NCBI GenBank assembly: GCA_017463985.1
Contig: JAFUEH010000025.1
Span: 104,055 to 168,054, forward strand
Reading direction: 5' to 3'
Length of the DNA stretch: 64,000 nt
DNA from: Eubacterium sp.
GTDB lineage: Bacteria; Bacillota; Clostridia; Oscillospirales; Acutalibacteraceae
Part shown: piece after piece, positions 33,404 to 63,805 of the stretch
How the letters are laid out: each line of letters starts with the position of its first letter
How positions within the stretch are numbered: position 1 is the first letter of the stretch
The notes under the pieces: model-generated
Told to the model about the DNA's origin: nothing
What the model saw: only the letters and a program-made list of their open reading frames with translations
Databases searched by the model: none
Position numbers and translations under genes: made by a program

Positions 33404-33432
33404 TTGATTTTTTCGTCATAATCAAATATAAT
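33404..33432 (+). promoter_or_regulatory. Host promoter of the split tRNA-Thr locus
   Basis: TTGATT (33404-33409), 17 bp, TATAAT (33427-33432). It lies 29 bases before the tRNA 5' half and would now drive the 5' half followed by the intact tRNA-Thr at 33540. Confidence 0.8.
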
Positions 33433-33460
33433 AGATAAGCAATCAGCTAATGCTGGTAAT

Positions 33461-33498
33461 GCTGGTGTGGCTCAGTTGGTAGAGCAGCGCATTCGTAA
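33461..33498 (+). pseudogene. tRNA-Thr(CGU) 5' half, interrupted in the anticodon loop
   Basis: Acceptor strand GCTGGTG, D-arm GCTC/GAGC, 5' anticodon stem GCGCA and the whole 7-nt loop TTCGTAA, then unrelated sequence from 33499. The missing partner strands (TGCGC, T-arm, CACCAGC, T, CCA) are at 63768-63805 and pair perfectly with it. Confidence 0.93.
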
Positions 33499-33539
33499 AC
33501 GGAAGGTCATAGCGGCGAAAAGGTAAAATTAAATAAAAT

Positions 33540-33615
33540 GCTACTGTGGCTCAGTTGGTAGAGCAGCGCATTCGTAATGCGCAGGTCGTCGGTTCGAGTC
33601 CGACCAGTAGCTCCA
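33540..33615 (+). tRNA. tRNA-Thr(CGU), complete, inside the element
   Basis: 76 nt with CCA encoded. All stems pair: acceptor GCTACTG/CAGTAGC, D-stem GCTC/GAGC, anticodon stem GCGCA/TGCGC, T-stem GTCGG/CCGAC. The anticodon loop TTCGTAA gives CGU, reading ACG (Thr). The acceptor and T-stems differ from the split host copy by compensated changes, so this is a different gene, not a duplicate. It has no promoter of its own in the 41 bases upstream and probably uses the host one at 33404-33432. Confidence 0.95.
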
Positions 33616-33641
33616 AGGCTTTCGCTTGCGAAAGCCTTTAT
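33615..33641 (+). terminator. Terminator of the element's tRNA-Thr
   Basis: 11-bp stem AAGGCTTTCGC (33615-33625) with GCGAAAGCCTT (33628-33638), then T-rich sequence. Confidence 0.88.
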
Positions 33642-33736
33642 TTATGCCGTTTTCGGGCGTTTTTGTTAAGCAAAATTCAAGCAAAAATGAAACCGAAAAA
33701 GCAAATATTTTCAGCCGAATTCAGCAACCAAAAAAT

Positions 33737-33770
33737 AATCTCATCCCGATTTTTTCAGGATGAGATTTTT
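33737..33770. terminator. Hairpin with T-run inside left end
   Basis: 10-bp stem AATCTCATCC (33737-33746) with GGATGAGATT (33758-33767), then T. The 325 bases between the tRNA and the first SDR gene hold only this hairpin and the arm-type repeats. Confidence 0.65.
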
Positions 33771-33784
33771 CAAATTTATGCCAA

Positions 33785-33806
33785 TGACCATCTATTGACC
33801 ATCTAT
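33785..33806 (+). repeat. Left tandem 11-bp repeats, putative integrase arm sites
   Basis: TGACCATCTAT occurs twice without a gap (33785-33795, 33796-33806). A diverged pair with the same 11-bp spacing is at the right end (63626-63647). Over 27 bp the two ends match at 22 positions. Confidence 0.65.
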
Positions 33807-33940
33807 GAATTTTTAGGTTATTTTAACTGATTTAAATACGCCGCTAAATCAAAATTTGTCAATCTGTATATTTTTCTATGCTTTCCCATTTAGTATATTT
33901 CTACTGGAACTTTTAATCACTTTATATTTATATCAATATT

Positions 33941-34717
33941 TTAGTCGTTCATTTTTGCTGCGTATTTTCTCGCCACCGACCTCGGCACAAGTCTGCATAG
34001 GAAACTCATGCACTTTGTATATCTTCCGTAATAGTACAGAGCCTTGCCCTTCTTTAATGCACGGATACCGCCCTTTGCAACATCTGAAGCACTCGCGGCT
34101 TTCCGGAACATTGTGGAATCTTTCTCCATTGCCGCAGCTGCTTCAAACCCTGTTTTAGTCGGTCCCGGACAAAAAGCTGTCACAGTAACACCGGTTCCTT
34201 TTACCTCCTCAGAAACCGCTTCGGAAAAGCTCCGGACAAAGTCCTTTGTAGCGTAATAGATACTCATATTCGGCCCTGCACAGAAAGCAGCAACCGAAGA
34301 TATATTTAATATCTTACCGTGCCCTTGCTCTATCATCGGCTTTATGAAGCAATGCGTCAGCTGCATCAGCGCAATCACATTCAGCTGTACCATCTCATAT
34401 TGCTTTTTCCAGTCACTATCTGCAAAGCTGCCGGAATCACCAAATCCGGCATTATTGATCAGGATGTCAATCTTAATATCATGTTCAAGTGTAAAATCAA
34501 ATACATCAAGTGCGGCATCTACTACCGAAAGATCAGCGGCACGTACATATACCGTTATTCCATACTCAGTTTCAAGTTCATTTTTAAGCGCAAATAATTT
34601 TCCTTCATTCCGTGCCACCAGCACAAGGTCATATTTCTTTTTGGCGAGAAGTTTTGCAAATTCAAGCCCAAGACCTCCCGATGCACCGGTGATTAAAGCT
34701 GTTTTATGTTTTCTCAT
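33941..34717 (-). CDS. Short-chain dehydrogenase/reductase (classical SDR)
   Basis: 258 residues. NAD(P)-dependent oxidoreductase with TGASGGLGLEFAKLLA (cofactor site), INNAGFG, the catalytic Ser in LNISSVAAF and YYATKDFVRSF (YxxxK), then CPGPTKTGF. The ATG at 34717 is preceded by GGAGAG; a GTG two codons earlier is the alternative. It is the last gene of the TetR operon (37268 to 33941) and overlaps the preceding gene by about 14 bases. The substrate is unknown. Confidence 0.9.
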   Translation of the reverse strand: MRKHKTALITGASGGLGLEFAKLLAKKKYDLVLVARNEGKLFALKNELETEYGITVYVRAADLSVVDAALDVFDFTLEHDIKIDILINNAGFGDSGSFADSDWKKQYEMVQLNVIALMQLTHCFIKPMIEQGHGKILNISSVAAFCAGPNMSIYYATKDFVRSFSEAVSEEVKGTGVTVTAFCPGPTKTGFEAAAAMEKDSTMFRKAASASDVAKGGIRALKKGKALYYYGRYTKCMSFLCRLVPRSVARKYAAKMND

Positions 34718-35201
34718 GCTCACTCTCCATATATCGTATTTCCGTATCCGCCAGCACCCTTAAAATCCTGTCTGTCTTTCTCAGATCCGGCAGCACTTCG
34801 ATCCATACAGCGGATGCCTCCCAGACAGAAAATGAAGCGACCGTTGAAATGATTGCTGTCAGAACATCATTTATATGTGAAGCAGAAGCAATCCCAAGCA
34901 GAACGAACAGGATGCCTATCATAAGCAGTCTTATGGCATTAGCCTTCTTAAGACGAATTTCTTTTCTGTTCCTTGCAGACAGCTTATCTATGTACTTCCG
35001 AAAAGCATTCTGAAATCTCGAAGCATCAATCGCCTTCTCGGATTTTATTTCTATGCATACTTTTTCTCCGAGTTTCCGATCTGCTATATAGTCACCCAGA
35101 TAATCCGTCAAATCACTGCTAAAGGAAGTGCCGGAGGGATCATACTCGTTATAAAGGCTGCTTTCTTCCCTCACATATAAAGGAATGCTAAACTCTCCCA
35201 A
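34704..35201 (-). CDS. Two-helix membrane protein of unknown function
   Basis: 165 residues from a TTG start at 35201, which has GGAGGG eight bases upstream; a nearby ATG is out of frame. Residues 1-85 are soluble. Two membrane segments follow (AIRLLMIGILFVLLGIASA and a second beginning VLTAIISTVASFSVW), with a charged C-terminal tail. I do not recognise the family. Overlap with the SDR and closeness to the HdeD-like gene place it in the same operon. Confidence 0.65.
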   Translation of the reverse strand: MGEFSIPLYVREESSLYNEYDPSGTSFSSDLTDYLGDYIADRKLGEKVCIEIKSEKAIDASRFQNAFRKYIDKLSARNRKEIRLKKANAIRLLMIGILFVLLGIASASHINDVLTAIISTVASFSVWEASAVWIEVLPDLRKTDRILRVLADTEIRYMESEHEKT

Positions 35202-35225
35202 TTCATGATCCCTCCGTCCTTTTGT

Positions 35226-35765
35226 TTATGCCGAAACAGCAATCATATTCGCCCCGGCAATAATAATGTTCAATCCAAAATTGATTCCGATAGCAACAAT
35301 GAGTCCCGCTGGATTAAACATGCTGAACACTCCGCAGACAATGAGCAGGATTCCTGCAATAAGGATAAGCCACCAGCGTCTTCCAAGGATCTCCGCATCG
35401 AGAGCCTTCCTTACTTTGTGAATACGAAGTGCCACCACGATTCGGATCACACCTACTACGCTCAGCCAGATTGCTGCAAGATAAACAACTGTCATATCTA
35501 CGATCAGCTGCATAGCCGTACTTCCAATCAGGATGATGCCAAATACGAGAGAGGCAATCGCTCCGGCAAGCGCCCAACCGGAGGACATTCCCGCCTTCTT
35601 TCTTTCATGCCAGAGTATGATGCCGCCTACTGAGTCTATGATCATATTGACACCGACTACATATCCGAGCGTCATATATGTCATAGCCGGATTCATAAGG
35701 CAGTACACACCTGTAATGATCATTATGATTCCAAGGATAAAGGTTACGATTCTGCTTGTTCTCAT
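35226..35765 (-). CDS. HdeD/DUF308-family membrane protein
   Basis: 179 residues with six predicted membrane helices in three pairs, beginning VTFILGIIMIITGVYCLMNP. The repeated G-xx-NP-type helix pairs fit the HdeD (DUF308) family, linked in enterobacteria to acid resistance. The ATG at 35765 has GGTGGAG in front. It sits in the TetR-controlled operon between the metallo-beta-lactamase and the two-helix protein. A stress role is inference. Confidence 0.8.
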   Translation of the reverse strand: MRTSRIVTFILGIIMIITGVYCLMNPAMTYMTLGYVVGVNMIIDSVGGIILWHERKKAGMSSGWALAGAIASLVFGIILIGSTAMQLIVDMTVVYLAAIWLSVVGVIRIVVALRIHKVRKALDAEILGRRWWLILIAGILLIVCGVFSMFNPAGLIVAIGINFGLNIIIAGANMIAVSA

Positions 35766-35775
35766 AATCTCCACC

Positions 35776-36624
35776 TCACAGTTCTATAACATGCGGAGCA
35801 ATGTCCGGATCATGGTTTGCAAGGGACTCCACGCAATTTTCATCAAGGCTCTGTTCTCTGATCCACGCAAGGGACTGCTTCTGAAGCTCTTTGTCCGCCG
35901 CAATGCCGGATGTGATCATTTCTTCCCAGCTCTTTCTTGCGTAGCCGCCGTCCGAGAAAAGCAGCACAAACTTTCCTTCCTCATTCTTCACCTTAACAGC
36001 AAACAGGCCATCAGCATGTCCGGGGATGTTGATAAGCTCAATGGAACCGTCACCGAGCAGATCATAAGACTTTCCGACCGGCCCCTGTGCATCATTCCAC
36101 TCGAATTCAGTCAGGTCGATGCCTTCCCACCAGCCCTTGTAGTAGCGCACCTTATTTGTGACCTTGCATGCGAATTTCACTTCGTCAGCTGCCACCATAA
36201 ACTTTTTTGCGCCCTTGACCTGCTTCAAGCCGTTGGCATGGTCGCAGTCGAGATGTGTCAAAAGCACCATATCTATATCCGTATCCTTGATTCCCATCTT
36301 AAGAAGCTGCTCATCGATGCACTGTCCAAGGCCTATTCTGCCCTGATTCACCTCATACAGAAGAATGGAACCGAGAGATTTGACCTGTGCCTTCTTATCA
36401 AACTCTCCCTTTGGACTGATGTCTCTTGCCCAGCCGGTATCTACGAGGAATTTTCCCTGCGGATGCTCGATCAGATATGCGGAGACCGGCAGCCAGATAC
36501 GCTCATCCTTATCTCCAAAAATGCCTGATGCCTTTACTGCGTTACTGTTATCTCCTCCAAACGGGAGATCCGGTGCCACGCAGACCTCACCGGTGTAAAA
36601 CACGTGAATTTTGATATTGCCCAT
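35776..36624 (-). CDS. Metallo-beta-lactamase-fold hydrolase, AHL-lactonase-like
   Basis: 282 residues resembling N-acyl-homoserine lactonase-type proteins: LVDTGWARD, LLTHLDCDHANGLKQV, and a later GHADGLFAV. The usual HxHxDH metal motif reads HLDCDH here, so the second His is Asp, and metal binding may differ. GGAGGG precedes ATG 36624; a longer frame back to 36705 crosses the promoter. The substrate is unknown; lactonase activity should not be assumed. Confidence 0.78.
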   Translation of the reverse strand: MGNIKIHVFYTGEVCVAPDLPFGGDNSNAVKASGIFGDKDERIWLPVSAYLIEHPQGKFLVDTGWARDISPKGEFDKKAQVKSLGSILLYEVNQGRIGLGQCIDEQLLKMGIKDTDIDMVLLTHLDCDHANGLKQVKGAKKFMVAADEVKFACKVTNKVRYYKGWWEGIDLTEFEWNDAQGPVGKSYDLLGDGSIELINIPGHADGLFAVKVKNEEGKFVLLFSDGGYARKSWEEMITSGIAADKELQKQSLAWIREQSLDENCVESLANHDPDIAPHVIEL

Positions 36625-36640
36625 AATAAAAACCCTCCTT

Positions 36641-36681
36641 ATAATGGTTGAACGGCTTCTATCGCCGTTATATCCATTATA
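36641..36681 (-). promoter_or_regulatory. Promoter with nested inverted repeats upstream of the MBL gene
   Basis: ATAATGG (36641-36647) pairs with CCATTAT (36674-36680), and AACGGC (36651-36656) with GCCGTT (36664-36669). A minus-strand -10 TATAAT (36681-36676) overlaps the outer arm. This is a good candidate operator for the adjacent TetR-type regulator, although it could also act as a leader hairpin. Confidence 0.5.
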
Positions 36682-36731
36682 GGAGAGCCGGTTTCTAAAG
36701 AACACTACACAAATCGGAAATGTGTTCGGAC

Positions 36732-37268
36732 TTACATGAGGGGCATCACAGCTTCCAATATTTCAGTGATCAGAGTCTTTATTTCCTTTGTCTGCACCGT
36801 TTCAGGATTCTTAATCCAGTGGACATAAGCACCGATAACCGCAGAGGCGATCATCTCAGCAATCAGGTCATAATTTTTAATTCCTATCTTGTCCGGGTAG
36901 CGCTTTCCGAAATTTCCTTTGATTGCATTTTTCCATTTTTCGACAAAGGAATGGTTCGGCTGGCATATCAGGAATGCATAAAAGAAGCTCCAATGCTCCT
37001 TCATGTAATCCTCAATCCCGTTCAGGAAATCAGGAAATTCCATGTTTGGATAGTTTCCATCAGCGGTTTTATCCGCCACGGCCTGAAGGCCTCCAATCAG
37101 TTCATTCTCTATCTCTTCCTTTACACTCGCTGTGTTATCGTAATAAGAGTAAAAAGTCGTTCTCGCAACTGGTGTAGCTGCGCAAAGCGCCTTGACTGTG
37201 ATGAGGGCAAAATCCTTCTTTTTATATTCTCTGATAAACTGCTCTTTGATAGCAGTCCTCGTATCCAT
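36732..37268 (-). CDS. TetR/AcrR-family transcriptional regulator
   Basis: 178 residues. N-terminal helix-turn-helix at about residues 20-45 (ITVKALCAATPVARTTFYSYY), then a helical ligand domain. GGAGGTGG precedes the ATG. It is the first gene in a same-strand run with the MBL, HdeD-like, two-helix and SDR genes and most likely controls them through the dyad at 36641-36681. Confidence 0.87.
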   Translation of the reverse strand: MDTRTAIKEQFIREYKKKDFALITVKALCAATPVARTTFYSYYDNTASVKEEIENELIGGLQAVADKTADGNYPNMEFPDFLNGIEDYMKEHWSFFYAFLICQPNHSFVEKWKNAIKGNFGKRYPDKIGIKNYDLIAEMIASAVIGAYVHWIKNPETVQTKEIKTLITEILEAVMPLM

Positions 37269-37389
37269 CGTAATCCACCTCCGGTATTAACTTCATAAGT
37301 ACAAACGTGTCATTTCAACCATCTATCTTGGTAACTCAACTTTGCTCTGACATCTACTGACGAATTTACCGGTAGTGAGGAGGATTTTT

Positions 37390-37527
37390 ATGTCTCAGGC
37401 AAATCCGATTTATTATTCTCATTATACCATGTCCCATACAAAAAGTACAGCCGTATATTTTTGCTCGTACAGCTGTATTTTTGGTTATGCAGGGAACTTG
37501 ATTTTTATTGTGTCTGCGTCTGAATAA
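37390..37527 (+). pseudogene. Possible truncated gene start running into the integrase scar
   Basis: GAGGAGG eight bases before ATG 37390 is an excellent start site, and it opens a 45-codon frame (MSQANPIYYSHYTMSHTKS and on). The last 26 or so codons are antisense to the integrase remnant, so the frame looks like a gene beginning cut off by a rearrangement. The rest of the 37269-37569 gap holds nothing else recognised. It may be untranslated. Confidence 0.3.
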
Positions 37528-37530
37528 ACA
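37450..37530 (-). pseudogene. Remnant of a second integrase gene: last codons and downstream hairpin
   Basis: Read on the minus strand, the sequence ends DADTIKIKFPA-stop, against DTKKIKFPA-stop at the end of the intact integrase (47084). The match continues past the stop into the downstream hairpin, so about 80 bp is shared between 37450-37530 and 47048-47130. Only the 3' tip is left. It marks a junction between parts of the composite element. Confidence 0.75.
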
Positions 37531-37569
37531 CCATTAAATCGGAATATATATCACTGTTATCCATTTAAT

Positions 37570-38151
37570 TTATCCCATTAGTTCCTTGGAGGACTCTTTA
37601 AGGATTTTTGCAACATCAAGTGATATATCGTTAAGCTCACTTTGAATATCGCCCATCAGCCAATTTTTATATAACGACAGTATTCCTCCTGCAAAGAAAT
37701 GAATACGGATTTCAAACATTGCGGAGCTTTTGAATTCTTCGGGAATATCCGAGGAGTTTCTCATATATTCAATAAATGTGTTATGCAGTTTCCTGAACAC
37801 CGAGTCTGCTCCGTTTTGTTTGATGAGGGTTTGATACAATTCTAAATTCTCATCAATATAACGGTTTATTCTTAAGAGCAGAGGAAGTGGATTACTGAAA
37901 AAGTTTTTATAGTCAAAGTCTGTAAGTATGCTCATTAACTTATCAACCGTATCGTCCTCGAAGGCTTCAAGCACACCGTAAACATCGGGGTAATGCGCAT
38001 AGAAGGTGGAACGGTTAATATCGGCAAGCCTAATAATTTCAGTAACGGTAATTTTTGAAACAGGCTTTTCCTGTATCAACTCCAAAAACGCTTCTTTAAT
38101 CAGGCGTTTTGAGCGAAGGGCGTTGCGATTTTCCTTTCTTTCCTGTGCCAT
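37570..38151 (-). CDS. TetR/AcrR-family regulator, divergent from oleate hydratase
   Basis: 193 residues. Helix-turn-helix at about residues 27-52 (KITVTEIIRLADINRSTFYAHY) and a DhaS-like C-terminal helical domain. ATG 38151 has GGAG before it. It is transcribed away from the oleate hydratase gene across a 158-bp gap with an imperfect dyad, GTTGACTtcaaaAGTcCAAC (38252-38271 region), near a TATACT -10. It likely represses the hydratase gene in response to fatty acids; this is inference. Confidence 0.87.
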   Translation of the reverse strand: MAQERKENRNALRSKRLIKEAFLELIQEKPVSKITVTEIIRLADINRSTFYAHYPDVYGVLEAFEDDTVDKLMSILTDFDYKNFFSNPLPLLLRINRYIDENLELYQTLIKQNGADSVFRKLHNTFIEYMRNSSDIPEEFKSSAMFEIRIHFFAGGILSLYKNWLMGDIQSELNDISLDVAKILKESSKELMG

Positions 38152-38309
38152 AGTTACTCCTTTCTCCGACAATTTCATTCTGTTTGTCGGTTTTCATATA
38201 AACACAAACGGATTAATGGTTGTTGATATTCCTTATCTCAATTATACTATAGTTGACTTCAAAAGTCCAACACTTATCGGAAATTTATTAATTGAGAAAG
38301 GAAATCAAT

Positions 38310-40067
38310 ATGAGAAATTATGACAGAGTAAATCCAAGAAAGCCCGAAGGCATTGAAAAGAAAAAGGCATATATCGTTGGCGGCGGCATTGCAGGCTTGT
38401 CCGCTGCTGCGTTCCTTGTAAGAGATGCGCATATGCCCGGCGAAAACATCACGGTTTATGACCAGCTTCCCGTGTTCGGCGGCTCAATGGACGCTTGCGG
38501 AAATGCTGAAACAGGCTATATTTCCCGTGGCGAAAGAGAGCTTGAGCCGTATATGGAATGTCTTTGGGATTTGTTTTCAACAATTCCGTCAATCTATGAA
38601 GAAGGACGTACTGTCCTTGACGAAACAAGAGAAAGTAATCAGCAGCTTGAAATCAATTCGGCTCACCGTCTTTGGGAAAAGGATTTTGTTCCGCACGATG
38701 AAACCGATATGGGTATCACTCCGAAGGTACAGAGCCAAATGCTCAAAATGCTGATGATTTCAGAAGAAGAAATTGAGGATGTTACGATTGACGAATGGTT
38801 TGATAAGAGCTTCTTTGAAAGCAATCTTTGGTATTACTGGGCAGCTATGCTCGCTTTCCAGCCTTATCAAAGCCTCATTGAAATGAAGCGTTATGCCATC
38901 CGCTTTATGCATCAACTTCACCTCATTAAATCCCTTAAACAGATTTTAAGAACGAAGTATGACCAGTATCATAGCCTTATTCTTCCACTTCAAAAATATC
39001 TTGCTGATAACGGCGTTCAGTTTGTTGCAGATACAACCGTTACCGATATGGATATTGAAATTGACGGAAAGAATAAGACGGTTAAAGCGCTTATGCTCCT
39101 TCACAACGGCGAGGAGAGCGTGCAGAAGGTTGGTGAGGAGGATATGGTATTCTTCACTAACGGCTCTATGACGCAAAATTCCACAAGAGGCTCAATGACA
39201 GAGGCTCCCGTTATGAATATGAATCAGGAAAACAAGGGCTGCTTCACACTTTGGGAAAAGCTTGCTGCAAAGAGCGAGGATTTCGGTCATCCTGAAAAGT
39301 TTGCTTTTGACCCGATGAAAACAAACTTTGTCAGCACAACGATTACCATTAAAGATTATCCATTCTTAATGAAGTATCTTTCGGAAAAGGACGGCAATGT
39401 TACAGGTTCAGGCGGTGTAAAGACCTTTGTGCATTCTCCTTGGTATATCTCCTACAATGCTCCGATTCAGCCTGTTGACCCGAATCAGCCTGAGAATGTT
39501 CAAGTTTTATGGCTTTACGGACTTCATTCAAACGAAATCGGCGAATGTGTTAAGAAGCCGATGACAGAATGCTCGGGTGAGGAAGTTCTTAAGGAATTCT
39601 GCTACTGGTGCGGTCTTGAGGATAAGTATGAAGAAATCAAGGAGCACTGCATTGCTATTCCTACGGTTATGCCGTATATTACCAGCCAGTTTATGCCAAG
39701 AGGCTTGAAGGACAGACCGCTTATTATTCCTGAAGGCTCCAAAAACCTTGCTTTCATCGGTCAGTTCGTTGAGTTGCCGGGCGATGTTGTATTCACAGTT
39801 GAAACCTCTGTTCGTACTGCAATGACCGCCGTTTACCGTATGACTCATCTTGACAGACCCGTTGACCCGCTGTTCCAAGGTCAGTATGACATCCGTATGC
39901 TCAAAGCAGGCGTACTGACAATGACAGGCAAGGAAAGCCTTGAACTCAAAGATTTCCCGAAAATCAATCCGCTTGAAATCAAGTCAACCCTTCAGAGTAT
40001 TAAGAAGTTATTTGATGATATTCCGGATGTACCGGCAGCATATTCAGAGCGCTGGGAAAACCAGTAA
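38310..40067 (+). CDS. ohyA: Oleate hydratase
   Basis: 585 residues. This FAD enzyme adds water to the cis-9 double bond of oleate and similar fatty acids to give 10-hydroxy acids. Seen: FAD-binding AYIVGGGIAGLSAAAFLVRD (residues 18-37), GGSMDACGN, YISRGERELEPYMECLWDLF, FQPYQSLIEMKRYAIRF, and near the C-terminus FIGQFVELPGDVVFTVE. The length is normal. AAAGGA precedes ATG 38310. It is known in gut and skin bacteria as a fatty-acid detoxifying and virulence-related enzyme; here it rides on a mobile element beside its own TetR. Confidence 0.95.
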   Translation: MRNYDRVNPRKPEGIEKKKAYIVGGGIAGLSAAAFLVRDAHMPGENITVYDQLPVFGGSMDACGNAETGYISRGERELEPYMECLWDLFSTIPSIYEEGRTVLDETRESNQQLEINSAHRLWEKDFVPHDETDMGITPKVQSQMLKMLMISEEEIEDVTIDEWFDKSFFESNLWYYWAAMLAFQPYQSLIEMKRYAIRFMHQLHLIKSLKQILRTKYDQYHSLILPLQKYLADNGVQFVADTTVTDMDIEIDGKNKTVKALMLLHNGEESVQKVGEEDMVFFTNGSMTQNSTRGSMTEAPVMNMNQENKGCFTLWEKLAAKSEDFGHPEKFAFDPMKTNFVSTTITIKDYPFLMKYLSEKDGNVTGSGGVKTFVHSPWYISYNAPIQPVDPNQPENVQVLWLYGLHSNEIGECVKKPMTECSGEEVLKEFCYWCGLEDKYEEIKEHCIAIPTVMPYITSQFMPRGLKDRPLIIPEGSKNLAFIGQFVELPGDVVFTVETSVRTAMTAVYRMTHLDRPVDPLFQGQYDIRMLKAGVLTMTGKESLELKDFPKINPLEIKSTLQSIKKLFDDIPDVPAAYSERWENQ

Positions 40068-40083
40068 TTATATATAAAAAAAT

Positions 40084-40116
40084 ACAGCCGCAGGTTTTCG
40101 CCTGGGGCTGTGTTTA
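40084..40116. terminator. Terminator between convergent oleate hydratase and Fe-ADH genes
   Basis: ACAGCC (40084-40089) with GGCTGT (40106-40111) plus an inner AGG/CCT. Seven T follow on the minus strand, so it mainly ends the Fe-ADH operon. Confidence 0.75.
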
Positions 40117-41277: not shown

Positions 41278-41286
41278 TGTATTACC

Positions 41287-53795: not shown

Positions 53796-53802
53796 CAAAT
53801 AT

Positions 53803-54592: not shown

Positions 54593-54606
54593 AATTTATA
54601 CTTAAT

Positions 54607-55356: not shown

Positions 55357-55360
55357 AATT

Positions 55361-56056: not shown

Positions 56057-56720
56057 TAATCCAAGCCTTTAATTCATCAAGCGTACTGTTGCTTAATTCC
56101 TGAGCGTCACTGCCGTTGACCGCTAATATATCTTTCACAGTGCTATCAGGTAACAGCTTTTCGAGCGTTGCCTGTGTTCCTGCATTTCCGCTGCCCTCAT
56201 GCGTACAAAACGGAATGACAGTTTTTCCTGAAAAATCGTAGTTTTCAAGAAAAGTGTAAACAGGCATTGGAAGATCTCCCCACCAAATCGGATAGCCAAG
56301 ATAAATAGTATCATATTGATCAAAATTTTCAACGCTTCCCTTCAGTTTAGGGCGGGCGTTTTCATTTTGCTCTGCTTTAGCAATATCGGTCAGCTCATCA
56401 TAGGTATCGGGGTATTCTTCTTCTTTTTCAATATGGAATAGTGTACCGCCCGTTTCCTCTGCAATGGCTTCGGCGAGAATTTCGGTATTGCCCTTTTCAA
56501 CTACTCCGACCTTGTACTGCTCTCCTGCCTGCGAGAAATAAGCGATAAGTATTTTTCCGCTTGAAGCAATTGTTTCTCCTTCGGTTTCGCTTTTCTCCAT
56601 AGTTGTTTGAAACTCAGCATTTTCTATTGAAGTCACCTCGCCTCTATCCGCAAAATTACTGCACGCAGAAAATGCAAAAAGCATAATCACTATGCTAAAA
56701 ACTGAAATTACTTTCTTCAT
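56046..56720 (-). CDS. Exported lipoprotein flavodoxin
   Basis: 224 residues. Lipoprotein signal MKKVISVFSIVIMLFAFSAC (Cys20), an acidic linker, then a flavodoxin fold: ILIAYFSQAGEQYKVG, YLGYPIWWGDLPMPVYTFL and PFCTHEGSGNAGTQATL. An FMN carrier outside the membrane is unusual, since most flavodoxins are cytoplasmic. It is encoded between a heme-type membrane protein and an FMN reductase. Confidence 0.88.
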   Translation of the reverse strand: MKKVISVFSIVIMLFAFSACSNFADRGEVTSIENAEFQTTMEKSETEGETIASSGKILIAYFSQAGEQYKVGVVEKGNTEILAEAIAEETGGTLFHIEKEEEYPDTYDELTDIAKAEQNENARPKLKGSVENFDQYDTIYLGYPIWWGDLPMPVYTFLENYDFSGKTVIPFCTHEGSGNAGTQATLEKLLPDSTVKDILAVNGSDAQELSNSTLDELKAWINEK

Positions 56721-56729
56721 ATTATTTCC

Positions 56730-57365
56730 CTACCTTATAAAATTTGTAGCTATTCTATTTTCTTCCTGCGCAGGGAACGGTACTCCTGCGTTTTCACCGG
56801 CTTCCTTCAGTTTTAAAAACCAAGCCATATTGCGTGCAAGCACTCTCATTACCTGCAGTCCTTCCAAATCTTGCTTCACTTCATCGGGTGTATTGCCGTG
56901 TACCATATTCCAGTAACGCGAGGTGATAACAGGCATTTGCTGATGCATAAAATATTTGTTGATTTCATCAAGAGCTGCTGTTGTACCGGCTCTGCGTGCT
57001 GAAACAATAGCCGCCGCAGGCTTAAAACGAAACGGGTGCGGCTCCTGCTTTGAAGCGGAAAAGAATACGCGATCCATAAAGCTCATCAAGCTGCCGTTCA
57101 TACCCGAAAAATATACGGGTGAGCCAAAGATAAAGCCGTCATAATTCTGTGCAAGCGCCGTGAACTCATTAACATTATCGCTAAAAACGCAATGTCCGAG
57201 TGTTGCACATTTATAACAGGCAATACATCCTGAAATTGCCTTTTTGCCTATCCAATAAAAATCAGCGTCAACACCGTTTTCCTTCAATGTTTCTGCAATT
57301 TCAGATAATGCCGTATAGGTACAGCCGTGCCGGTTAGGGCTGCCGTTAACTAATAAAACTTTCAT
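56730..57365 (-). CDS. NADPH-dependent FMN reductase/iron-sulfur flavoprotein family
   Basis: 211 residues. LLVNGSPNRHGCTYTALSEI (FMN loop), then SGCIACYKCATLGHC with clustered Cys that may bind an Fe-S cluster or act in redox, and FIFGSPVYFSGMNGSLMSFMDRV. It reduces flavins or acts as a small electron-transfer flavoprotein. It lies 5 bases after the Fe-S aldo/keto reductase. Confidence 0.85.
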   Translation of the reverse strand: MKVLLVNGSPNRHGCTYTALSEIAETLKENGVDADFYWIGKKAISGCIACYKCATLGHCVFSDNVNEFTALAQNYDGFIFGSPVYFSGMNGSLMSFMDRVFFSASKQEPHPFRFKPAAAIVSARRAGTTAALDEINKYFMHQQMPVITSRYWNMVHGNTPDEVKQDLEGLQVMRVLARNMAWFLKLKEAGENAGVPFPAQEENRIATNFIR

Positions 57366-57369
57366 TTAC

Positions 57370-58488
57370 TTACCTCTCAAACAAATCTGCAACCTGAACG
57401 AGCAGTTCTCTTATAGGGAGATGCTGCGGACATTCGTGTTCGCATTTGCCGCATTTAATACATTCGCCCGCCTTGCCGTTATTAGCAGTGTATACCGTAT
57501 TATAATAGTAATCCTGATTCCAGTTATTAAACACGGTTTTCGCATTGTAGCAGGAAAACAAATCGGGAATTAAAATCTTTTTGGGGCAACCGTCTGTGCA
57601 GTAACGGCAGGAGGTGCAGGGAATCATATCCATATTTTTAAATATTTCACAAACCCTGTTCACGGCATTTTGCTCCGCATCGTTTAACGGAGTGAAATGC
57701 TTCATATAACTTACATTATCCTTCATCTGCGCCATATCGCTCATACCCGACAGCACCATTTTAACATTATCAAAGCCCGCTGCATAACGAATTGCATAGG
57801 AGGCATAGCTCATACTGCCGAGAGAATCATATATTTCTTTTGCTTCTTCAGGCAGATTGACGAGACTGCCGCCCTTAACAGGCTCCATAACGATAACCGG
57901 CTTGCCGTAGCTTTGGCAAAGTTCATAGCATTTTCTGCCCTGTACCGCTTTATCCTCATAATCCACATAGTTTAGCTGAATTTGAACAACCTCAATTTCG
58001 GGATAATCGTCAAGGATTTCCTTAAGCACGTCAACAGTATCGTGAAAAGAAATGCCAAAATGCTTAATTTTCCCCTCTTTCTTCAACTCCAACGCCGTTT
58101 CGTATGCCTTGCAACGCTTAAATTTAGGATAGTTTTCCGATCCCTGTGCGTGCATTAAATAGTAATCAAAATATTCAACACCGCACGCTTTTAACTGGCT
58201 TTCAAAAAACGGACGAATATCCTCCTGTTTATTAAAATACGGCGCTGTTAATTTATCGGTTAAGGTGTAGGCCTCCCTTGGATAACGCGAAGTAAGACAT
58301 TCCTTAATGGCAGTTTCACTTTGACCGCCAATATAGCCGTGCGCCGTATCAAAATAGGTAAACTCATTTTCTATAAAATAATCCACCATATCGGCAAACT
58401 GCGCTGTATCCACCTTGCCGTCAATCATTGGAAGACGCATACAGCCGAAGCCGAATTTTTTATTATTTTCTTCAAAGGGCTTCATCAT
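57370..58488 (-). CDS. Aldo/keto reductase with C-terminal 4Fe-4S ferredoxin domain
   Basis: 372 residues. AKR barrel: FGFGCMRLPMIDG, YFDTAHGYIGGQSE (Asp, Tyr), TDKLTAP (Lys), YYLMHAQG (His). The C-terminal 90 residues carry two Cys sets, PCTSCRYCTDGCPK and CIKCGKCEHECPQ, fit for two [4Fe-4S] clusters. Thus it could take electrons from flavodoxin or ferredoxin instead of NADPH only. The substrate is unknown. Confidence 0.92.
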   Translation of the reverse strand: MMKPFEENNKKFGFGCMRLPMIDGKVDTAQFADMVDYFIENEFTYFDTAHGYIGGQSETAIKECLTSRYPREAYTLTDKLTAPYFNKQEDIRPFFESQLKACGVEYFDYYLMHAQGSENYPKFKRCKAYETALELKKEGKIKHFGISFHDTVDVLKEILDDYPEIEVVQIQLNYVDYEDKAVQGRKCYELCQSYGKPVIVMEPVKGGSLVNLPEEAKEIYDSLGSMSYASYAIRYAAGFDNVKMVLSGMSDMAQMKDNVSYMKHFTPLNDAEQNAVNRVCEIFKNMDMIPCTSCRYCTDGCPKKILIPDLFSCYNAKTVFNNWNQDYYYNTVYTANNGKAGECIKCGKCEHECPQHLPIRELLVQVADLFER

Positions 58489-58503
58489 GTTCTCCTTGTG
58501 AAT

Positions 58504-58875
58504 TTAATAGGTTGAGGCGATGCTTTGAGTTATTTTCCAAACTCCGTCACATTCTACCATATTGCATTTCTGTTGTAAATGCCAATAGTGCTTACCACCG
58601 CCAAAAACAGCGGCAAGCACATATGATTGACCGATTATAACGGTGCAATTTTCATTTGTTTGAACCTCAAAATGCTCGTGCACTGCAGAATAATAATTCA
58701 GTGTTCCGTCTAAAACAGCATTTATAAACTCGTTTTTATTCTGCTTCATACCCGTCATATGATGAAGAACAAAGCTATCGTCCAACACAGCGTTTAAACC
58801 GGCCTTGTCCTTTTCAATCATAGCGCGGTGCATCTCCTGATAAGCGTTTATCGCTGAATTTTTATCAATTATCAT
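58504..58875 (-). CDS. SnoaL/NTF2-like protein
   Basis: 123 residues with the cone-shaped NTF2 pattern: INAYQEMHRAMIEKDKAGL, FVLHHMTGMKQNKNEFI, and paired C-terminal strands. Family members act as small isomerases, hydrolases or binding proteins. It is encoded between two aldo/keto reductases, one base from the upstream one. Confidence 0.78.
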   Translation of the reverse strand: MIIDKNSAINAYQEMHRAMIEKDKAGLNAVLDDSFVLHHMTGMKQNKNEFINAVLDGTLNYYSAVHEHFEVQTNENCTVIIGQSYVLAAVFGGGKHYWHLQQKCNMVECDGVWKITQSIASTY

Positions 58876-58876
58876 T

Positions 58877-59863
58877 TTACTTTTTTATAGGTGAACCGCC
58901 GAATACGGTAGACATTTTTATCGCATTAAGACGGTTGTCAATTTCTTCTGTTTCATCAGCTGTTAACTCAATATCTGCCGCAGCGCCGTTTTCAATAATT
59001 CTTTCGGCTTTTCTTGAGCCGGGAATTGGAACAATGTATGACTTTTTATTGAGCATCCATGCCAGTGAAATTTGAGCAGGTGTAGTATTCTTATCTCTTG
59101 CAAGTTCTCTTAAAAAATACAACAGTTCTTCGTTTTTCTTAAAGCCGTGCTTGGTGTATTGCGGCATGATATTTCTGAAATCGCCTTTTTCAAATTTGCT
59201 CTCCTTTGTAAAGCAGTCTGAAAGCACTCCGTTTGCAAGAGGACTAAAGGCAACATAACCGATATTAAGTTCTTCAAGCACGGGAAATAAATCCTCATAC
59301 CACCGTGCCATCATAGAATATCTATTTTGAATACAGGTAACCGGACAGACAGCGTGTGCACGCCTAATATATTTTTCGTTTGCTTCCGAAATACCCCAGT
59401 GAAGGATTTTGCCTTCCTTCATCAGCTCCTTCATAGTTTCAGCAACCTCTTCGGGAGAAACCTTAGGGTCAATACGGTGCTGATAAAATAAATCTACATA
59501 ATCCGTCTTTAACCTTAAAAGACTGGTGTCAATGGACTTTCTGATGGTTTCGGGCTTGGAGTTCATTACCAGCATACCCGCTCTATGACGAACGCCGCAT
59601 TTGGTAGCGATTTTAACCTTATCTCTGTATGGCTTTAACGCTTCTCCCACTAAATCCTCATTGTGCTCAACGACGCCATTCTTATTTTTGCCGATATAAC
59701 ACTCAGCAGTATCAAAAAATGTGTAGCCGTTTTCAAACGCCTGTTGAATGGCATAAAGGGATTCCCTTTTATCAGCAGGATATCCGTAGGCATGCGTAAA
59801 TCCCATGCAGCCGAGTCCTACTGCAGAAACCTCTAAATCTCTTCCGAGAATTCTTTGTTTCAT
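58877..59863 (-). CDS. Aldo/keto reductase (AKR11/13-like)
   Basis: 328 residues: VSAVGLGCMGFTHAYG, FFDTAECYIGKNKNG (Asp, Tyr), ATKCGV (Lys), YQHRIDPKVSPEEV (His), and C-terminal PIPGSRKAERIIENG for NADPH. It resembles the YajO/IolS-type soluble reductases. It lies 19 bases after the AKR at 59883. Confidence 0.92.
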   Translation of the reverse strand: MKQRILGRDLEVSAVGLGCMGFTHAYGYPADKRESLYAIQQAFENGYTFFDTAECYIGKNKNGVVEHNEDLVGEALKPYRDKVKIATKCGVRHRAGMLVMNSKPETIRKSIDTSLLRLKTDYVDLFYQHRIDPKVSPEEVAETMKELMKEGKILHWGISEANEKYIRRAHAVCPVTCIQNRYSMMARWYEDLFPVLEELNIGYVAFSPLANGVLSDCFTKESKFEKGDFRNIMPQYTKHGFKKNEELLYFLRELARDKNTTPAQISLAWMLNKKSYIVPIPGSRKAERIIENGAAADIELTADETEEIDNRLNAIKMSTVFGGSPIKK

Positions 59864-59882
59864 TGTACTTGCTCCTTTATGA

Positions 59883-60770
59883 TTACCATTCCTTTTTCTC
59901 TTTTTCGCTGCGATTATTTTTCTTGCGCTCTTCCACCATTTTTACAAACCACTCAACCATCTTCGGATCTTGGTGGGAGAAGAAAGAACTTGTTTTTTTA
60001 TCAAGTGCATTGATTTTTGACATATCTTCATCTGAAATTGAAAAATCAAACACATCAATATTTTCCTTCATTCTTTCAATATGTGTTGACTTAGGAATTA
60101 CAACAACGCCTCTCTGAATGTTCCAACGCAGCATAATTTGCGCAGGCGTTTTGCCGTATTTTTCCGCAAGGTAGGCGATGACCTCATTATTAAACGAGCC
60201 ATCCCTGCCCTCTGCGAAGGGTGCCCACGCTTCAAGCGCAATGCCGTATTTTTTTGCATATTCCATCAGCTCCTTTTGCTGATTGAATATATGCGTTTCC
60301 ATTTGTGTTATCATGGGCTTGATACGGTTAAAGCTTGCAAATTCAACCATTCTGTCCACATAAAAATTGGATATGCCGATTGCCCGAATAACGCCCTGCT
60401 CATAAAGTTCCTCAAGAGCACGCCAAGCACCGTAAGCGTCGCCGAAGGGTTGATGGAGTAGCATAAGGTCAATATAATCCGTCTGTAATTTTCTTAAAGA
60501 GTCAAGCACGGATTTTTTGCATTCCTCATAGCCGTAATGCTCAATCCATACCTTTGAGGTTAAAAAGATTTCCTCACGGGGAACGCCGGACTTTTTGATA
60601 GCAGCGCCTACCTCCTCCTCATTAAAATAGGATTGCGCCGTATCAATTAAGCGATAGCCGCTTTTCAAGGCGTCAAGAACGCAGCACTCGCATTCGTCCT
60701 TGGTTACCTGATATACGCCATAGCCGAGCATCGGCATTTTGACGCCGTTATATAAAGTGGTATATTCCAT
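59883..60770 (-). CDS. Aldo/keto reductase (DkgA/YvgN type)
   Basis: 295 residues: LIDTAQSYFNEEEVGAAIK (Asp, Tyr), LTSKVWIEHYG (Lys), LMLLHQPFGDAYG (His), AIGISNFYVDRMVEF, VVIPKSTHIERMKEN. It is close in plan to the AKR at 45261. Its first base is shared with the last base of the SDR stop. Confidence 0.93.
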   Translation of the reverse strand: MEYTTLYNGVKMPMLGYGVYQVTKDECECCVLDALKSGYRLIDTAQSYFNEEEVGAAIKKSGVPREEIFLTSKVWIEHYGYEECKKSVLDSLRKLQTDYIDLMLLHQPFGDAYGAWRALEELYEQGVIRAIGISNFYVDRMVEFASFNRIKPMITQMETHIFNQQKELMEYAKKYGIALEAWAPFAEGRDGSFNNEVIAYLAEKYGKTPAQIMLRWNIQRGVVVIPKSTHIERMKENIDVFDFSISDEDMSKINALDKKTSSFFSHQDPKMVEWFVKMVEERKKNNRSEKEKKEW

Positions 60771-61627
60771 TATTTATCTCCTTCTGCCATTCCGCTTTCA
60801 GCATTTGGCTGAAGCGGACCGTAGTAATAGCTTGCGGTGGCGCCGCCGTCCACAAGGAAGGTAGAGCCTGTAATAAACTGCGCTCTTTCGCTCATAATCA
60901 GTTCTGCTACATCCGCCACCTCATCCGCCGTACCCGGTCTGCCGGCAGGACATTTTTTGAACATATTTTTATAAAAATCACCGCGGATACCGTTGAACTC
61001 GTCAATTGCCAGCGGTGTGACAATGATGCCGGGTGCAATATCGTTAAGCCTTGCGCCGCGCTCGCCCCAACGCACCGCCTCATACATGGTGCGCTTTTCA
61101 TTACAGCGCTTTGCAAGTTGATAGGCGTGCAGCGTATTTTTAATATTTTTAGGCTGTAAAAAATCAAGAGACAAAAGTTCTTCCGTAGGAGTCATTGCAA
61201 GCGCTCTGTCCTGCTCGGGTGTGAGCTGAGGCATACGCCAGCCGCTTTGGCTTGAAATCGTAACGCCTGTTCCTCCCTTTGCTATCACCTTGCCAACCTC
61301 CTCTAAAAGAACTGCCGTTCCATAAAGATCAACCTTTAGTATTGTTTCAATCGGCGCCTGGCTTGGAGATACACCTGCTCCGTTAACAAGAGCAGTTATC
61401 TCGCCGTACTCCTGGCCCTTTGCAATCATTGCCTTGATTGAGTCTCGCGATGATAAATCCATTTCAAATGGCTCAACATCATAGCCTGCCTCGGTCATTA
61501 TTTTTGCAATAGTTTTAGCGTTTTCAATATTTTTATCGCCGAGAATAATCTTTTTTCCGTAACCAATTCTGCGTGCAATCGCCATACTGATTTGCCCTGC
61601 GCCGGTTACAAGCATAACATTTTTCAT
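60770..61627 (-). CDS. Short-chain dehydrogenase/reductase, atypical cofactor loop
   Basis: 285 residues. The cofactor loop reads VTGAGQISMAIARRIGYG rather than TGxxxGIG. ALVNGAGVSPSQ replaces NNAG, and the catalytic region is SSQSGWRM ... AYQLAKRCN (YxxxK) after a long insertion of about 30 residues. IAPGIIVTPLA and the C-terminal GSTFLVDGG are normal. Cofactor D-residue (ILGDKN) suggests NAD use. The substrate is unknown. Confidence 0.88.
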   Translation of the reverse strand: MKNVMLVTGAGQISMAIARRIGYGKKIILGDKNIENAKTIAKIMTEAGYDVEPFEMDLSSRDSIKAMIAKGQEYGEITALVNGAGVSPSQAPIETILKVDLYGTAVLLEEVGKVIAKGGTGVTISSQSGWRMPQLTPEQDRALAMTPTEELLSLDFLQPKNIKNTLHAYQLAKRCNEKRTMYEAVRWGERGARLNDIAPGIIVTPLAIDEFNGIRGDFYKNMFKKCPAGRPGTADEVADVAELIMSERAQFITGSTFLVDGGATASYYYGPLQPNAESGMAEGDK

Positions 61628-61642
61628 TCTGCTGCCCCCCGT

Positions 61643-62155
61643 TTATATGTTGCTCTTTGCCCATTTTGCAACGGCGTTTTCGCTTTTAGCCGCGTCCGCA
61701 CCGTGAACGGCGAGACCTTTTGAAAAATTCGCGCCCGTACAAATTTTCATTAAATCTCTTTCGCATACGCCGAGCCCGCTGCCTTCGTGCGTCATCAGTG
61801 GAAGCACCTTTTTACCTGTAAAATCAAGCCTTTCCAGTTGACTGAACACTGCCATCGGGAAGGTACCCCACCAGCACGGACCGCAAACAAAAATATTATC
61901 GTAATCCGAAATATCCTGAAGATAGTTTTTCAACTCGGGTCTTGCATTTTCACGAAGCTCTGCCTTTGCTTCCTCAATGCAGGTCATATAGGAAGCGGAA
62001 TAATCATTTACTGTTTCGATTTCAAACAAATCCGCGCCAACGGCGTTCTGAATAAACTCTGCAACGATTTCGGTATTGCCTTTTTTGAGCGGTACAATAC
62101 TGCCGTTTACATAATTTTCACCTTTTCTTGAATAATAGATAACTAAATTTTTCAT
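61643..62155 (-). CDS. Flavodoxin
   Basis: 170 residues: LVIYYSRKGENYVNG (FMN loop), FVCGPCWWGTFPMAVF, PLMTHEGSGLGVCERDL. The loop has the ENYVNG variant shared with many cluster-linked flavodoxins. It is the first gene of the ten-gene operon. GAAAGGAGCG precedes the ATG. Confidence 0.9.
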   Translation of the reverse strand: MKNLVIYYSRKGENYVNGSIVPLKKGNTEIVAEFIQNAVGADLFEIETVNDYSASYMTCIEEAKAELRENARPELKNYLQDISDYDNIFVCGPCWWGTFPMAVFSQLERLDFTGKKVLPLMTHEGSGLGVCERDLMKICTGANFSKGLAVHGADAAKSENAVAKWAKSNI

Positions 62156-62251
62156 TGAAAATCGCTCCTTTCTGATTTCAACTATATTATAAACTCAAAC
62201 AAAGCATAGAGCAATTTCAATATCAAATCGTTTTAATAAGTTTTTCTTATA

Positions 62252-62527
62252 TGCCATAGCACTCGTATTCTAACCCGCCTAAAACCGAGTATTTAAGCGA
62301 ATTTTAAAGTTTTCGTTCTTGCTTGGCGCCAGCCAAGCTGCGCCCTCAACGCTCCAAACTTCATCTTAACTCCTACGGCTTTAGGTGCTGCGCAGTTTAG
62401 AATGAGCAAATTGGGCTTAGTTCAAGGCAAAAAGCACAGTAATCCTTTTGGATTGCGAGCATTTTAAACGCAGAAATAAGTTCGATTTGCCATTCTAAAC
62501 CGTGGTTCGAATACGAGCTCTATGGCT
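62252..62527. repeat. 276-bp nested palindromic element, MITE-like
   Basis: Outer arms GCCATAGCACTCGTATTC (62253-62270, with TAACC to 62275) and their near-complement at 62504-62526 pair with few mismatches. Inner arms GTTTAGAATG and GCAAAT (62395-62411) pair perfectly with ATTTGC and CATTCTAAAC (62485-62500), apart from one extra base. Small hairpins CTTGGC/GCCAAG (62322-62337) and AATCC/GGATT (62441-62454) lie inside. No open frame fits. It separates the LysR gene from the redox operon. Confidence 0.65.
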
Positions 62528-62532
62528 AAAAA

Positions 62533-62556
62533 AACGGGCGGTAATAACCGTCCGTT
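62533..62556 (-). terminator. Terminator of right LysR gene
   Basis: AACGGGCGG (62533-62541) with CCGTCCGTT (62548-62556), one mismatch, overlapping the LysR stop; a T-run follows on the minus strand. Confidence 0.75.
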
Positions 62557-63433
62557 AAAATTTTTGCTGTAAGATTTTGATAAAAGCTTCAATATGCGGA
62601 TTTTTGTTTTGCTTATCCCAGAAGGCGCAGTAGTTTTTGCGCAGGGCTTCGCCGCGGAAGGTTAAAGGCACGCGCGTAACCGTTTCGGCATAATGCTTTG
62701 GTATGTCCTCGCTTTCAGCCGGGAAATATCCCCTGCCGCCTGCGACAAGCATCCTTGCTTCGTCAGTGGTTTCGGCAAAAACGAAATCGCTTTTTATTCC
62801 GATATAATCCCTGTAATAATCGCGCTCGTTTTCGCGTTCCTTTTCGCTTGCAACCAAAATGCAAGGCATATCCTTGAGCTGAAAAGGCTCCACGCTTTCA
62901 AGCTGGGCAATAGGGTGGCGTGAGGAGATTTCAATATTGCAGGCGGAGGTTCTTAAAATAAGATTGTTATAGGCTTTGTTAAAGGCTCTGCGCTGGTCGT
63001 TTAACACAATATCCGCCTTGTTTTCAATCAGAAGATGATACAGCTTTTCGTGGTTACCGCTCGTAATGCTGATGTTGACCTCGGGATACCTTTCGGCAAA
63101 TTCGGCAAACGCAAGCTGAATGGCAGTGGAATCATAGCTTTTAAGATAACCTACCGAAAGCGTATCGCTCCTGTCGTTTGCTATGCGCTTTGCTTCGCTG
63201 CAAATCAGTTCCAGCTCGTTGACAAGACCGAGCGTGCTTTTATAAAAGTATTCGCCTGCGGGAGTAAGGCTGAATTTGCGCCCGTTTCTCTGCAGCAGGG
63301 TAACGCCGAGCTCGTTTTCAAGCGCGCTGATTTGTTGCGAGATTGCTGATTGAGAAATATAACATTCCTCAGCTGCTTTTGTGAAGCTATTGTATTTTAT
63401 AACTGCCTGAAAATATTTAATCTGTTTAATCAT
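62555..63433 (-). CDS. LysR-family transcriptional regulator
   Basis: 292 residues. Winged helix: YFQAVIKYNSFTKAAEECY and QSAISQQISALENELGVTLL; then a substrate-binding domain (LSVGYLKSYDSTAIQLAF). It lies on the same strand upstream of the ten-gene redox operon, separated by the palindromic element, and is its likely regulator. Confidence 0.9.
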   Translation of the reverse strand: MIKQIKYFQAVIKYNSFTKAAEECYISQSAISQQISALENELGVTLLQRNGRKFSLTPAGEYFYKSTLGLVNELELICSEAKRIANDRSDTLSVGYLKSYDSTAIQLAFAEFAERYPEVNISITSGNHEKLYHLLIENKADIVLNDQRRAFNKAYNNLILRTSACNIEISSRHPIAQLESVEPFQLKDMPCILVASEKERENERDYYRDYIGIKSDFVFAETTDEARMLVAGGRGYFPAESEDIPKHYAETVTRVPLTFRGEALRKNYCAFWDKQNKNPHIEAFIKILQQKF

Positions 63434-63447
63434 AATTTCACCAAATT

Positions 63448-63480
63448 ATCAGTTTTTCTTATTGTATTAGAAAATCTGAT
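63448..63480. promoter_or_regulatory. Dyad upstream of right LysR gene
   Basis: ATCAG-TTTTTCT ... AGAAAAT-CTGAT forms an imperfect inverted repeat 15-50 bases upstream of the LysR start, a fitting place for an autoregulatory site. Confidence 0.4.
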
Positions 63481-63540
63481 ATTTGTCAATTTTGTAATTA
63501 TGTTTTTTTAACCAAGAGCGTCAATATAGGCAACTAAATG

Positions 63541-63600
63541 AGAACAGCTCTATTTCTTCTGCGTAAAGAATTCGAGTAAGAGCCTTAAACTGTTCTATTT
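63541..63600. promoter_or_regulatory. Inverted repeat containing diverged element motif
   Basis: AGAACAG (near 63541) and CTGTTCT (near 63592) bracket TTCTGCGTAAAGAATT (63557-63572), a diverged copy of the motif at 48577 and 52178. It may be a third site for the element repressor close to the right end. Confidence 0.35.
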
Positions 63601-63625
63601 TTATCTGCAAAAATGATTAACACAA

Positions 63626-63647
63626 TGACCACTTAACGACCATTTAT
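63626..63647 (+). repeat. Right tandem 11-bp repeats, putative integrase arm sites
   Basis: TGACCACTTAA and CGACCATTTAT, in the same orientation and spacing as the left pair, lie 114 bases inside the right junction. Confidence 0.6.
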
Positions 63648-63760
63648 GAAAGGAAAGCCGTAGTAAAAAAGAGCGCCAAATGAATAATTTAGCAATAAAA
63701 AGGATAATAAAAACGGCTCAAAATCGTTAAATGATACCACTTTAATAATTCCTGCGCTGT

Positions 63761-63805
63761 TTCGTAATGCGCAGGTCGCCGGTTCGAGTCCGGCCACCAG
63801 CTCCA
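63761..63805 (+). pseudogene. tRNA-Thr(CGU) 3' half with duplicated anticodon loop
   Basis: TTCGTAA (element-end copy of the core), then anticodon 3' strand TGCGC, variable AGGTC, T-arm GCCGG-TTCGAGT-CCGGC, acceptor CACCAGC, T and CCA. It completes the 5' half at 33461-33498 without mismatch. Confidence 0.93.

Follow-up and report, generated by a model that had tools for sequence, protein, structure and literature searches.

A complete tRNA-Thr gene carried in the attachment site of a probable integrative mobilizable element in Eubacterium sp.

The window considered here, 64,000 nucleotides of Eubacterium sp. DNA, is the terminal part of contig JAFUEH010000025.1 (C32 below, ending at 168,054) in a 2.58-Mb, 41-contig assembly (GCA_017463985.1). 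It very probably contains an integrative mobilizable element (IME) lodged in the anticodon loop of a host tRNA-Thr(CGU) gene and bringing with it, inside its own attachment site, a complete replacement for the gene that it has broken. We put the probability of this reading at roughly 0.87. Its parts that can be read off from the sequence are the split gene, the matching halves, the carriage of a whole tRNA, the conserved anatomy of the site, the recurrence of the arrangement in other genomes and its stacking.

Behind a cinA-like gene (32921-33400) the host tRNA gene breaks off in its anticodon loop, TTCGTAA, and its 3' half, headed by a second copy of the loop, follows beyond the 30,262 bp of element that lie between the two cores (33499-63760; Table 1). 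An earlier note on this DNA had claimed that the two halves match, and they do: rejoined, they form a tRNA-Thr(CGU) in which every position pairs in the acceptor (7/7), anticodon (5/5) and T (5/5) stems. The empty site that the note had envisaged was found as well, since an intact tRNA behind cinA in a relative, G025, is identical to the rejoined one at 76/76 positions with 0 differences; a whole copy of the same type stands behind cinA in G030, whose contig stops directly after the gene. Full stems on rejoining were obtained in 4/4 Thr elements tested (those of G000, which is the window's own genome, G065, G024 and G096; a mixed-end stack in G061 was excluded), with the product equal to the G025 tRNA in G000 and G065. 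One match to the double-anticodon-arm pattern is present in the window, and 0/100 shuffles of it have any. Neither junction rebuilds a functional tRNA. When the host 5' half is read into the element at the left junction, 2/7 acceptor and 1/5 anticodon positions pair, and ARAGORN reports a single tRNA in the window, the carried one, which bears out the contention that the right core restores nothing.

The visible right flank amounts to 195 bp, as the window stops at the contig end. Within it, past the displaced 3' half (63853-64000), there is an exact inverted copy, 17 nt long, of the tRNA T arm, and then, at the contig end, 18 nt of the tRNA 3' end repeated in direct orientation. A stretch 76% identical to this region lies after tRNA-Thr(GGU) elsewhere in the genome (G000:C23:80427-80735), and inverted T-arm pieces that look similar by eye follow tRNA-Thr in several relatives; these pieces are a small tRNA-derived repeat.

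For islands in tRNA genes restoration is the rule, to go by the Islander paper (PMC4383910), and one can envisage the window as a classical island arrived at in two steps, the intact tRNA having been rebuilt by an incoming 3' half and the 5' half upstream of it being the relic of an older, unrelated insertion. Integrase-linked tRNA-Arg genes that lack a split half in three relatives (G072, G032 and G026) are what restoration predicts. However, in 4/4 elements pairing of the displaced 3' half is complete with the split 5' half (7/7 and 5/5) and poorer with the 5' half of the carried tRNA (5-6/7 and 4-5/5, the least clear case being G096 with 6/7 and 4/5), and the same 155-bp left end is present in other species with different upstream DNA. 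The element-borne fragment does not restore the target tRNA, and classical restoration was rejected for the window; the two-step history we hold to be highly improbable.

The carried tRNA begins 79 bp downstream of the host gene start, 41 bp inside the left junction as the earlier note had placed it, and no other CGU tRNA turned up in the assembly. Compared with the rejoined host tRNA it has 6 substituted positions, which by eye make up 3 compensated pairs, 2 in the acceptor and 1 in the T stem. The carried gene is of a GCTACTG type, and the original host gene, as the displaced halves testify, was of a GCTGGTG type. Paired arm-like GACCA repeats are present at both ends of the element, and since the carried tRNA lies between the crossover core and such repeats it is part of the attachment site. 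The arm-like repeats are 48-181 bp beyond the tRNA in 9/12 left ends (G006 has none, and the left ends of G005 and G069 stop too early to show them), and 122-134 bp ahead of the right core in 6/6 right ends measured. The attachment site, roughly 430 bp long, has only the core TTCGTAA and scattered bases in common with its target.

Comparison was with 80 genomes of the genus, the window's own included, most of them fragmented and with contigs frequently breaking at element repeats. The 155-bp left end is present in 8/80 (154-155 bases at 92-100% identity), so that the left segment with its GCTACTG tRNA does have the other hosts in which the earlier note had thought of looking for it. Pairwise identity among the eight averages 37% (8-72%) over 200 bp of upstream host DNA, 82% (69-95%) over the linker and 98.6% over the carried tRNA; downstream, over as much as 200 bp, it averages 76% (15/28 pairs, the contigs of two genomes being too short). 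Carried tRNA, linker and downstream DNA are thus common to the eight genomes and the upstream host DNA is not, which supports the proposal that a whole replacement tRNA travels on the element. A left-end pattern search yielded 12 stretches of named genomes, all of them metagenome-assembled genomes of Clostridia (Eubacterium sp., Oscillospiraceae, Clostridiaceae etc.), with 9/12 from genomes already counted in the genus set and 3 new; the origin label is a ruminant gut site for 5/12 and red deer for 2 more. The tRNA can vary: G006 has the same linker start and a different tRNA, while G024 and G096, whose split host halves are unlike each other, have in common a different carried tRNA identical to one without a split half in G012 and G094. 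A scan of the order for the double-anticodon-arm arrangement returned 1/394 genomes, the window's own. This is a weak negative, as 4/394 are genomes of the genus and one of these, G024, has a diverged element that escapes the pattern.

Are the two genes merely a tandem duplication of a host tRNA-Thr, with the first copy broken by insertion or decay and the element carrying nothing? The fetched loci of 60/80 genomes were scanned for CGU tRNAs, and 46 of the 60 have a complete one there, one each and none with two. A split 5' half is just upstream in 15/46 (13 found by script, and G006 and G062 by eye) and there is none within 150 bp in the other 31; among the remaining 14 of the 60, where these loci gave no complete CGU tRNA, is G066, whose contig stops inside the next tRNA. 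Tandem duplication can point to relatives in which a tRNA of carried type has no split half nearer than 150 bp: in G029 and G032 its sequence is that of the carried one, in G026 and G071 a single base differs. From these it also follows that donor genes exist, whether or not the carried gene arose as the earlier note proposed, by a first integration and a later imprecise excision. Against duplication are the position of the intact tRNA, which is within the element and flanked by core and arm-like repeats, and the lack in the fetched loci of any relative with two CGU tRNAs; on both grounds it was rejected for the window, and it is scarcely credible. The earlier note had named an intact GCTACTG tRNA in the same place, with no element, as an observation that would tell against it. 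In form that is found in G032 and G026, both of other species; in the window the displaced halves show the original to have been of the GCTGGTG type.

The attribution to a mobilizable element comes from the integrase and the MobP3 relaxase, both of which are inside the defined ends. A Pfam scan of 30 element open reading frames (ORFs), including every listed ORF of at least 200 aa and the shorter ones in part, met with no phage structural family and no conjugation machinery; with relaxase and integrase present and phage structural families absent from the scanned ORFs, a temperate phage was rejected. Relatives of the integrase stand behind the same kind of left end in G024 and G096 (74%) and G068 (88%), and behind the same left ends relatives of the relaxase and of the small protein next to it lie beyond the integrase. 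By sequence, the nearest solved structures are the Int chains of 6en0 and 6emy (E 2.5e-16), which we take to be Tn1549 Int. Among the matches listed, ten per collection, the best are 40% identical in the plasmid collection and 39-45% in the phage collection, with no named IME among them.

How might the break be survived? Strand exchange by the integrase in the 7-bp loop would break the host tRNA gene, and because the attachment site shares so little with the target the gene would stay split. The complete tRNA-Thr(CGU) inside the attachment site would make this tolerable, with the host promoter transcribing broken 5' half, linker and new tRNA together and RNase P presumably releasing the new tRNA from the joint transcript. 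At the junction of the excised circle the right end of the element would be joined to ACGGAAGGTC. We infer that the host promoter transcribes the carried tRNA, that this tRNA functions, and that the element can be excised and transferred. The earlier note's suggestion that the host promoter drives the carried tRNA stands as to layout: three promoter-like sites fall in 33350-33750 (shuffle mean 0.7), all upstream of the split gene, and none in the linker. Read-through from that promoter would fit the promoter scan, in which 18/18 left ends gave no consensus promoter in half or linker.

The design is not confined to threonine. Relatives of the integrase at E <= 1e-60 are present in 18/80 genus genomes, and tRNA-Arg(ACG) is beside the integrase in 8 of the 15 loci examined. 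At five of these eight (G012, G028, G093, G075 and G020) a tRNA-Arg 5' half that ends in the anticodon loop and a linker of 53-54 nt come ahead of the complete tRNA, and in G020 there are two split halves in series. In the one Arg element tested, that of G012, ARAGORN recognizes tRNA-Arg(ACG) when the far 3' half is joined to the split 5' half; the arm-like repeats there are GACG, not GACC. A 20-integrase tree has one branch (93/99) that parts seven Thr-labelled from ten Arg-labelled rows, with four Thr/Arg labels unsure, three Arg rows lacking a split half and the root not settled. The window's own genome has an Arg-type right end on C31 (L214, L187), with a displaced tRNA-Arg 3' half at 52320, and on the same contig a second integrase, 55% identical to the first (G000:C31:58430-59599); no tRNA-Arg(ACG) was found among the 36 tRNAs in the stretches fetched from this assembly and the one in the window. 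Loss of tRNA-Arg(ACG) is expected to be lethal, copy number in the genomes with the split Arg gene aside.

That the carried tRNA is a chance passenger for which the host has no need is the remaining alternative, and it can appeal to the presence in the genome of tRNA-Thr(UGU), which might read ACG. Set against this, acceptor, anticodon and T stems (the D stem being outside the count) are paired in 12/12 carried tRNAs, while the linkers diverge, down to 69% identity, and such retention of the three stems is a sign of selection. In addition, the same design occurs at tRNA-Arg(ACG), for which dispensability is not to be expected on general grounds. The passenger explanation is accordingly unlikely. 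Several observations nonetheless weigh against the main reading. As tRNA-Thr(UGU) might read ACG, the carried tRNA may not be essential. A consensus promoter was found within 100 bp upstream in only 4/18 left ends, a host promoter being assumed elsewhere. At the left junctions of G024 and G096 the anticodon stem is rebuilt (5/5; acceptor 1-2/7), and their carried tRNA has the loop CTCGTAA, one base off the core, so that on its sequence it may not be a fresh target. In the window carried tRNA and integrase are 13.5 kb apart, whereas in G096, G068, G024 and G011 the distance runs from 73 bp up to about 4.6 kb. A second right end of the same family in the window's genome (G000:C7:21117-21164), where the tRNA 3' half lacks part of the CCA end, is located among sugar-catabolism genes, and no left partner for it was found in the assembly. 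Finally, three of the eight integrase-linked tRNA-Arg loci, in G072, G032 and G026, have no split half; possibly there was classical restoration in these, or the broken half was lost by recombination between two 5' halves.

The window's carried tRNA retains the loop TTCGTAA, hence in this line it offers a target to the next element, which can break it and bring a further replacement. In G066 there are indeed two left ends in series, and the carried GCTACTG tRNA is itself split by the second. A second kind of end, family B, follows tRNA 5' halves in other genomes (Table 1). Its motifs, GCAGGTC-TCGGGAAGTAGTTAAGG on the left and CCTTAACTACAACCNGAGGTC on the right, are by eye nearly palindromic when put together; the left one occurs at 8 places in 6/80 genomes and the right one at 11 places in 9/80, with a tRNA-Thr 3' half next in 9/11, and controls read backwards gave 0. 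Family B ends are also immediately ahead of complete tRNAs in G061 and G087. The DNA between them is metabolic, with glutamine synthetase and an ammonium transporter seen by eye in G028 and G087. A large serine recombinase was looked for as the agent in all but one (G077) of the 13 genomes that have family B ends: PF07508 is present in 10/12 but on none of the contigs with these ends, and no recombinase of family B was found. G028 has two kinds of left end one after the other, matched in nested order by two kinds of right end; both displaced 3' halves there are of one type, so nesting in the strict sense is no more than possible, and right-flank synteny did not settle the order of the stacked elements. 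The stacked region of G061 contains a protein of the chloramphenicol-acetyltransferase family (PF00302; L104:4729-5352). Separately, a dispersed repeat (..ACGAGCAATGCGAAGCG..GCGACTATG..), by eye resembling a miniature inverted-repeat transposable element (MITE), interrupts or joins tRNA-Thr 5' halves.

The principle is known from phages. In actinobacteriophages tRNA-dependent lysogeny has been shown by genetics (Guerrero-Bustamante and Hatfull 2024, PMC10865867), and there the phage tRNA is needed for lysogeny, a promoter of its own has been demonstrated with a reporter for Fionnbharth, and the relation of such systems to canonical tRNA-restoring ones is left open. The similar case of Lactobacillus prophage Lj965 is cited in the same paper. 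In two Sinorhizobium prophages a foreign tRNA-Leu(UAG) is carried in place of the host gene that they inactivate (PMC11476347), and phiLM21-like Sinorhizobium prophages are reported not to work by tRNA substitution (PMC12429752). The window resembles tRNA-dependent lysogeny in its tyrosine integrase, attB in a host tRNA gene, short common core, unrestored junctions and complete carried tRNA. It differs from the actinobacteriophages in being a relaxase-bearing element with no consensus promoter in half or linker, and in having its tRNA inside the attachment site, stacking, and two isotypes among related integrases. With the Sinorhizobium case it shares a split host tRNA and a substitute on the element, which in Sinorhizobium resembles another species' gene, but those are prophages in two strains, for which the part of the account seen describes neither attachment-site embedding nor stacking. 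Classical islands (PMC4383910) have a tyrosine integrase, an anticodon-loop crossover and a displaced 3' fragment at the far end in common with it, yet there an attP fragment restores the gene, whereas here a full gene is carried and nothing restored; from IMEs with MobP relaxases (PMC5704250) it has the likeness of a MobP3 relaxase. In the open-licence literature searched, at the level of titles and abstract openings, no relaxase-bearing element bringing a whole tRNA was found. What is new, then, is the presence of the principle in relaxase-bearing elements, the tRNA cassette in the attachment site with no recognizable promoter, the stacking, and two isotypes within one integrase family.

A broader proposition, for which the odds seem to us even, concerns a whole family of mobilizable elements. 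The family would have turned an entire tRNA gene into a functional component of its attachment site, specialized on Thr-CGU and Arg-ACG by swaps of core and cassette, and come to replace chromosomal tRNA genes across species; in most lines it would renew its own target, with stacking of elements as the result, and it would tie the host to itself, since any removal but an exact excision costs the tRNA. The main reading already takes what is known as tRNA-dependent lysogeny beyond phages, to relaxase-bearing elements in Clostridia. Within one genus there are related integrases aimed at two isotypes, sites that are split and others that may have been restored, and element-bearing as well as element-free genomes, so the order of events is testable. 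If the reading holds, tRNA genes, often treated as vertically inherited, are exchangeable between species via site-specific recombination, and rows of 5' halves are a record of successive insertions.

Table 1. Features of the split tRNA-Thr gene and the element (window positions), with related ends in other genomes
Feature	Position	Strand	Remark
Putative host tRNA promoter, TTGATT-17-TATAAT	33404..33432	+	upstream of split gene; promoter-like
Host tRNA-Thr(CGU) 5' half	33461..33498	+	38 nt; stops in anticodon loop TTCGTAA
Left crossover core TTCGTAA	33492..33498	+	
Left-end linker of element	33499..33539	+	41 nt; without consensus promoter
Complete carried tRNA-Thr(CGU)	33540..33615	+	ARAGORN
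Terminator-like hairpin	33615..33638	+	behind carried tRNA
Left arm-like direct repeats	33786..33803	+	GACCATCTATTGACCATC; 288 bp from left core
Left cargo	33941..47049		SDR, DUF308, MBL-fold, TetR, oleate hydratase, Fe-ADH, alpha/beta hydrolases, flavodoxin, aldo/keto reductase, LysR
Tyrosine integrase	47084..48277	-	397 aa; PF00589
MobP3/MobL relaxase	48613..50121	-	NF041499, 303.5 bits, cut-off 150 (NCBIfam)
Small protein behind relaxase	50114..50512	-	MobC-like by position only; without Pfam match
HTH_36/DnaD-like protein	50674..51141	-	possibly replication
LexA-like S24 repressor	51422..52075	-	
Right cargo	52347..63433		GH39, CMD/cupin, cytochrome b-like, flavodoxins, FMN reductase, aldo/keto reductases, SDR, LysR
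Right arm-like repeats	63627..63645	+	GACCACTTAACGACCATTT; 134 bp from right core
Right core TTCGTAA and displaced host tRNA 3' half	63761..63805	+	3' half 63768-63805
Family B ends	G028 L156/L147, G061 L151/L140, G087 L155, G036 L152, G069 L154		
MITE-like repeat at tRNA-Thr 5' halves	L046:2144-2250 (G026), L109 tail (G066), L154 (G069)		

Among the remaining genes of the element, the small protein behind the relaxase is 35% identical to its counterpart in G096, and amid the many small oxidoreductases of the cargo there is an oleate hydratase (38292-40067; NF010584, 660 bits).

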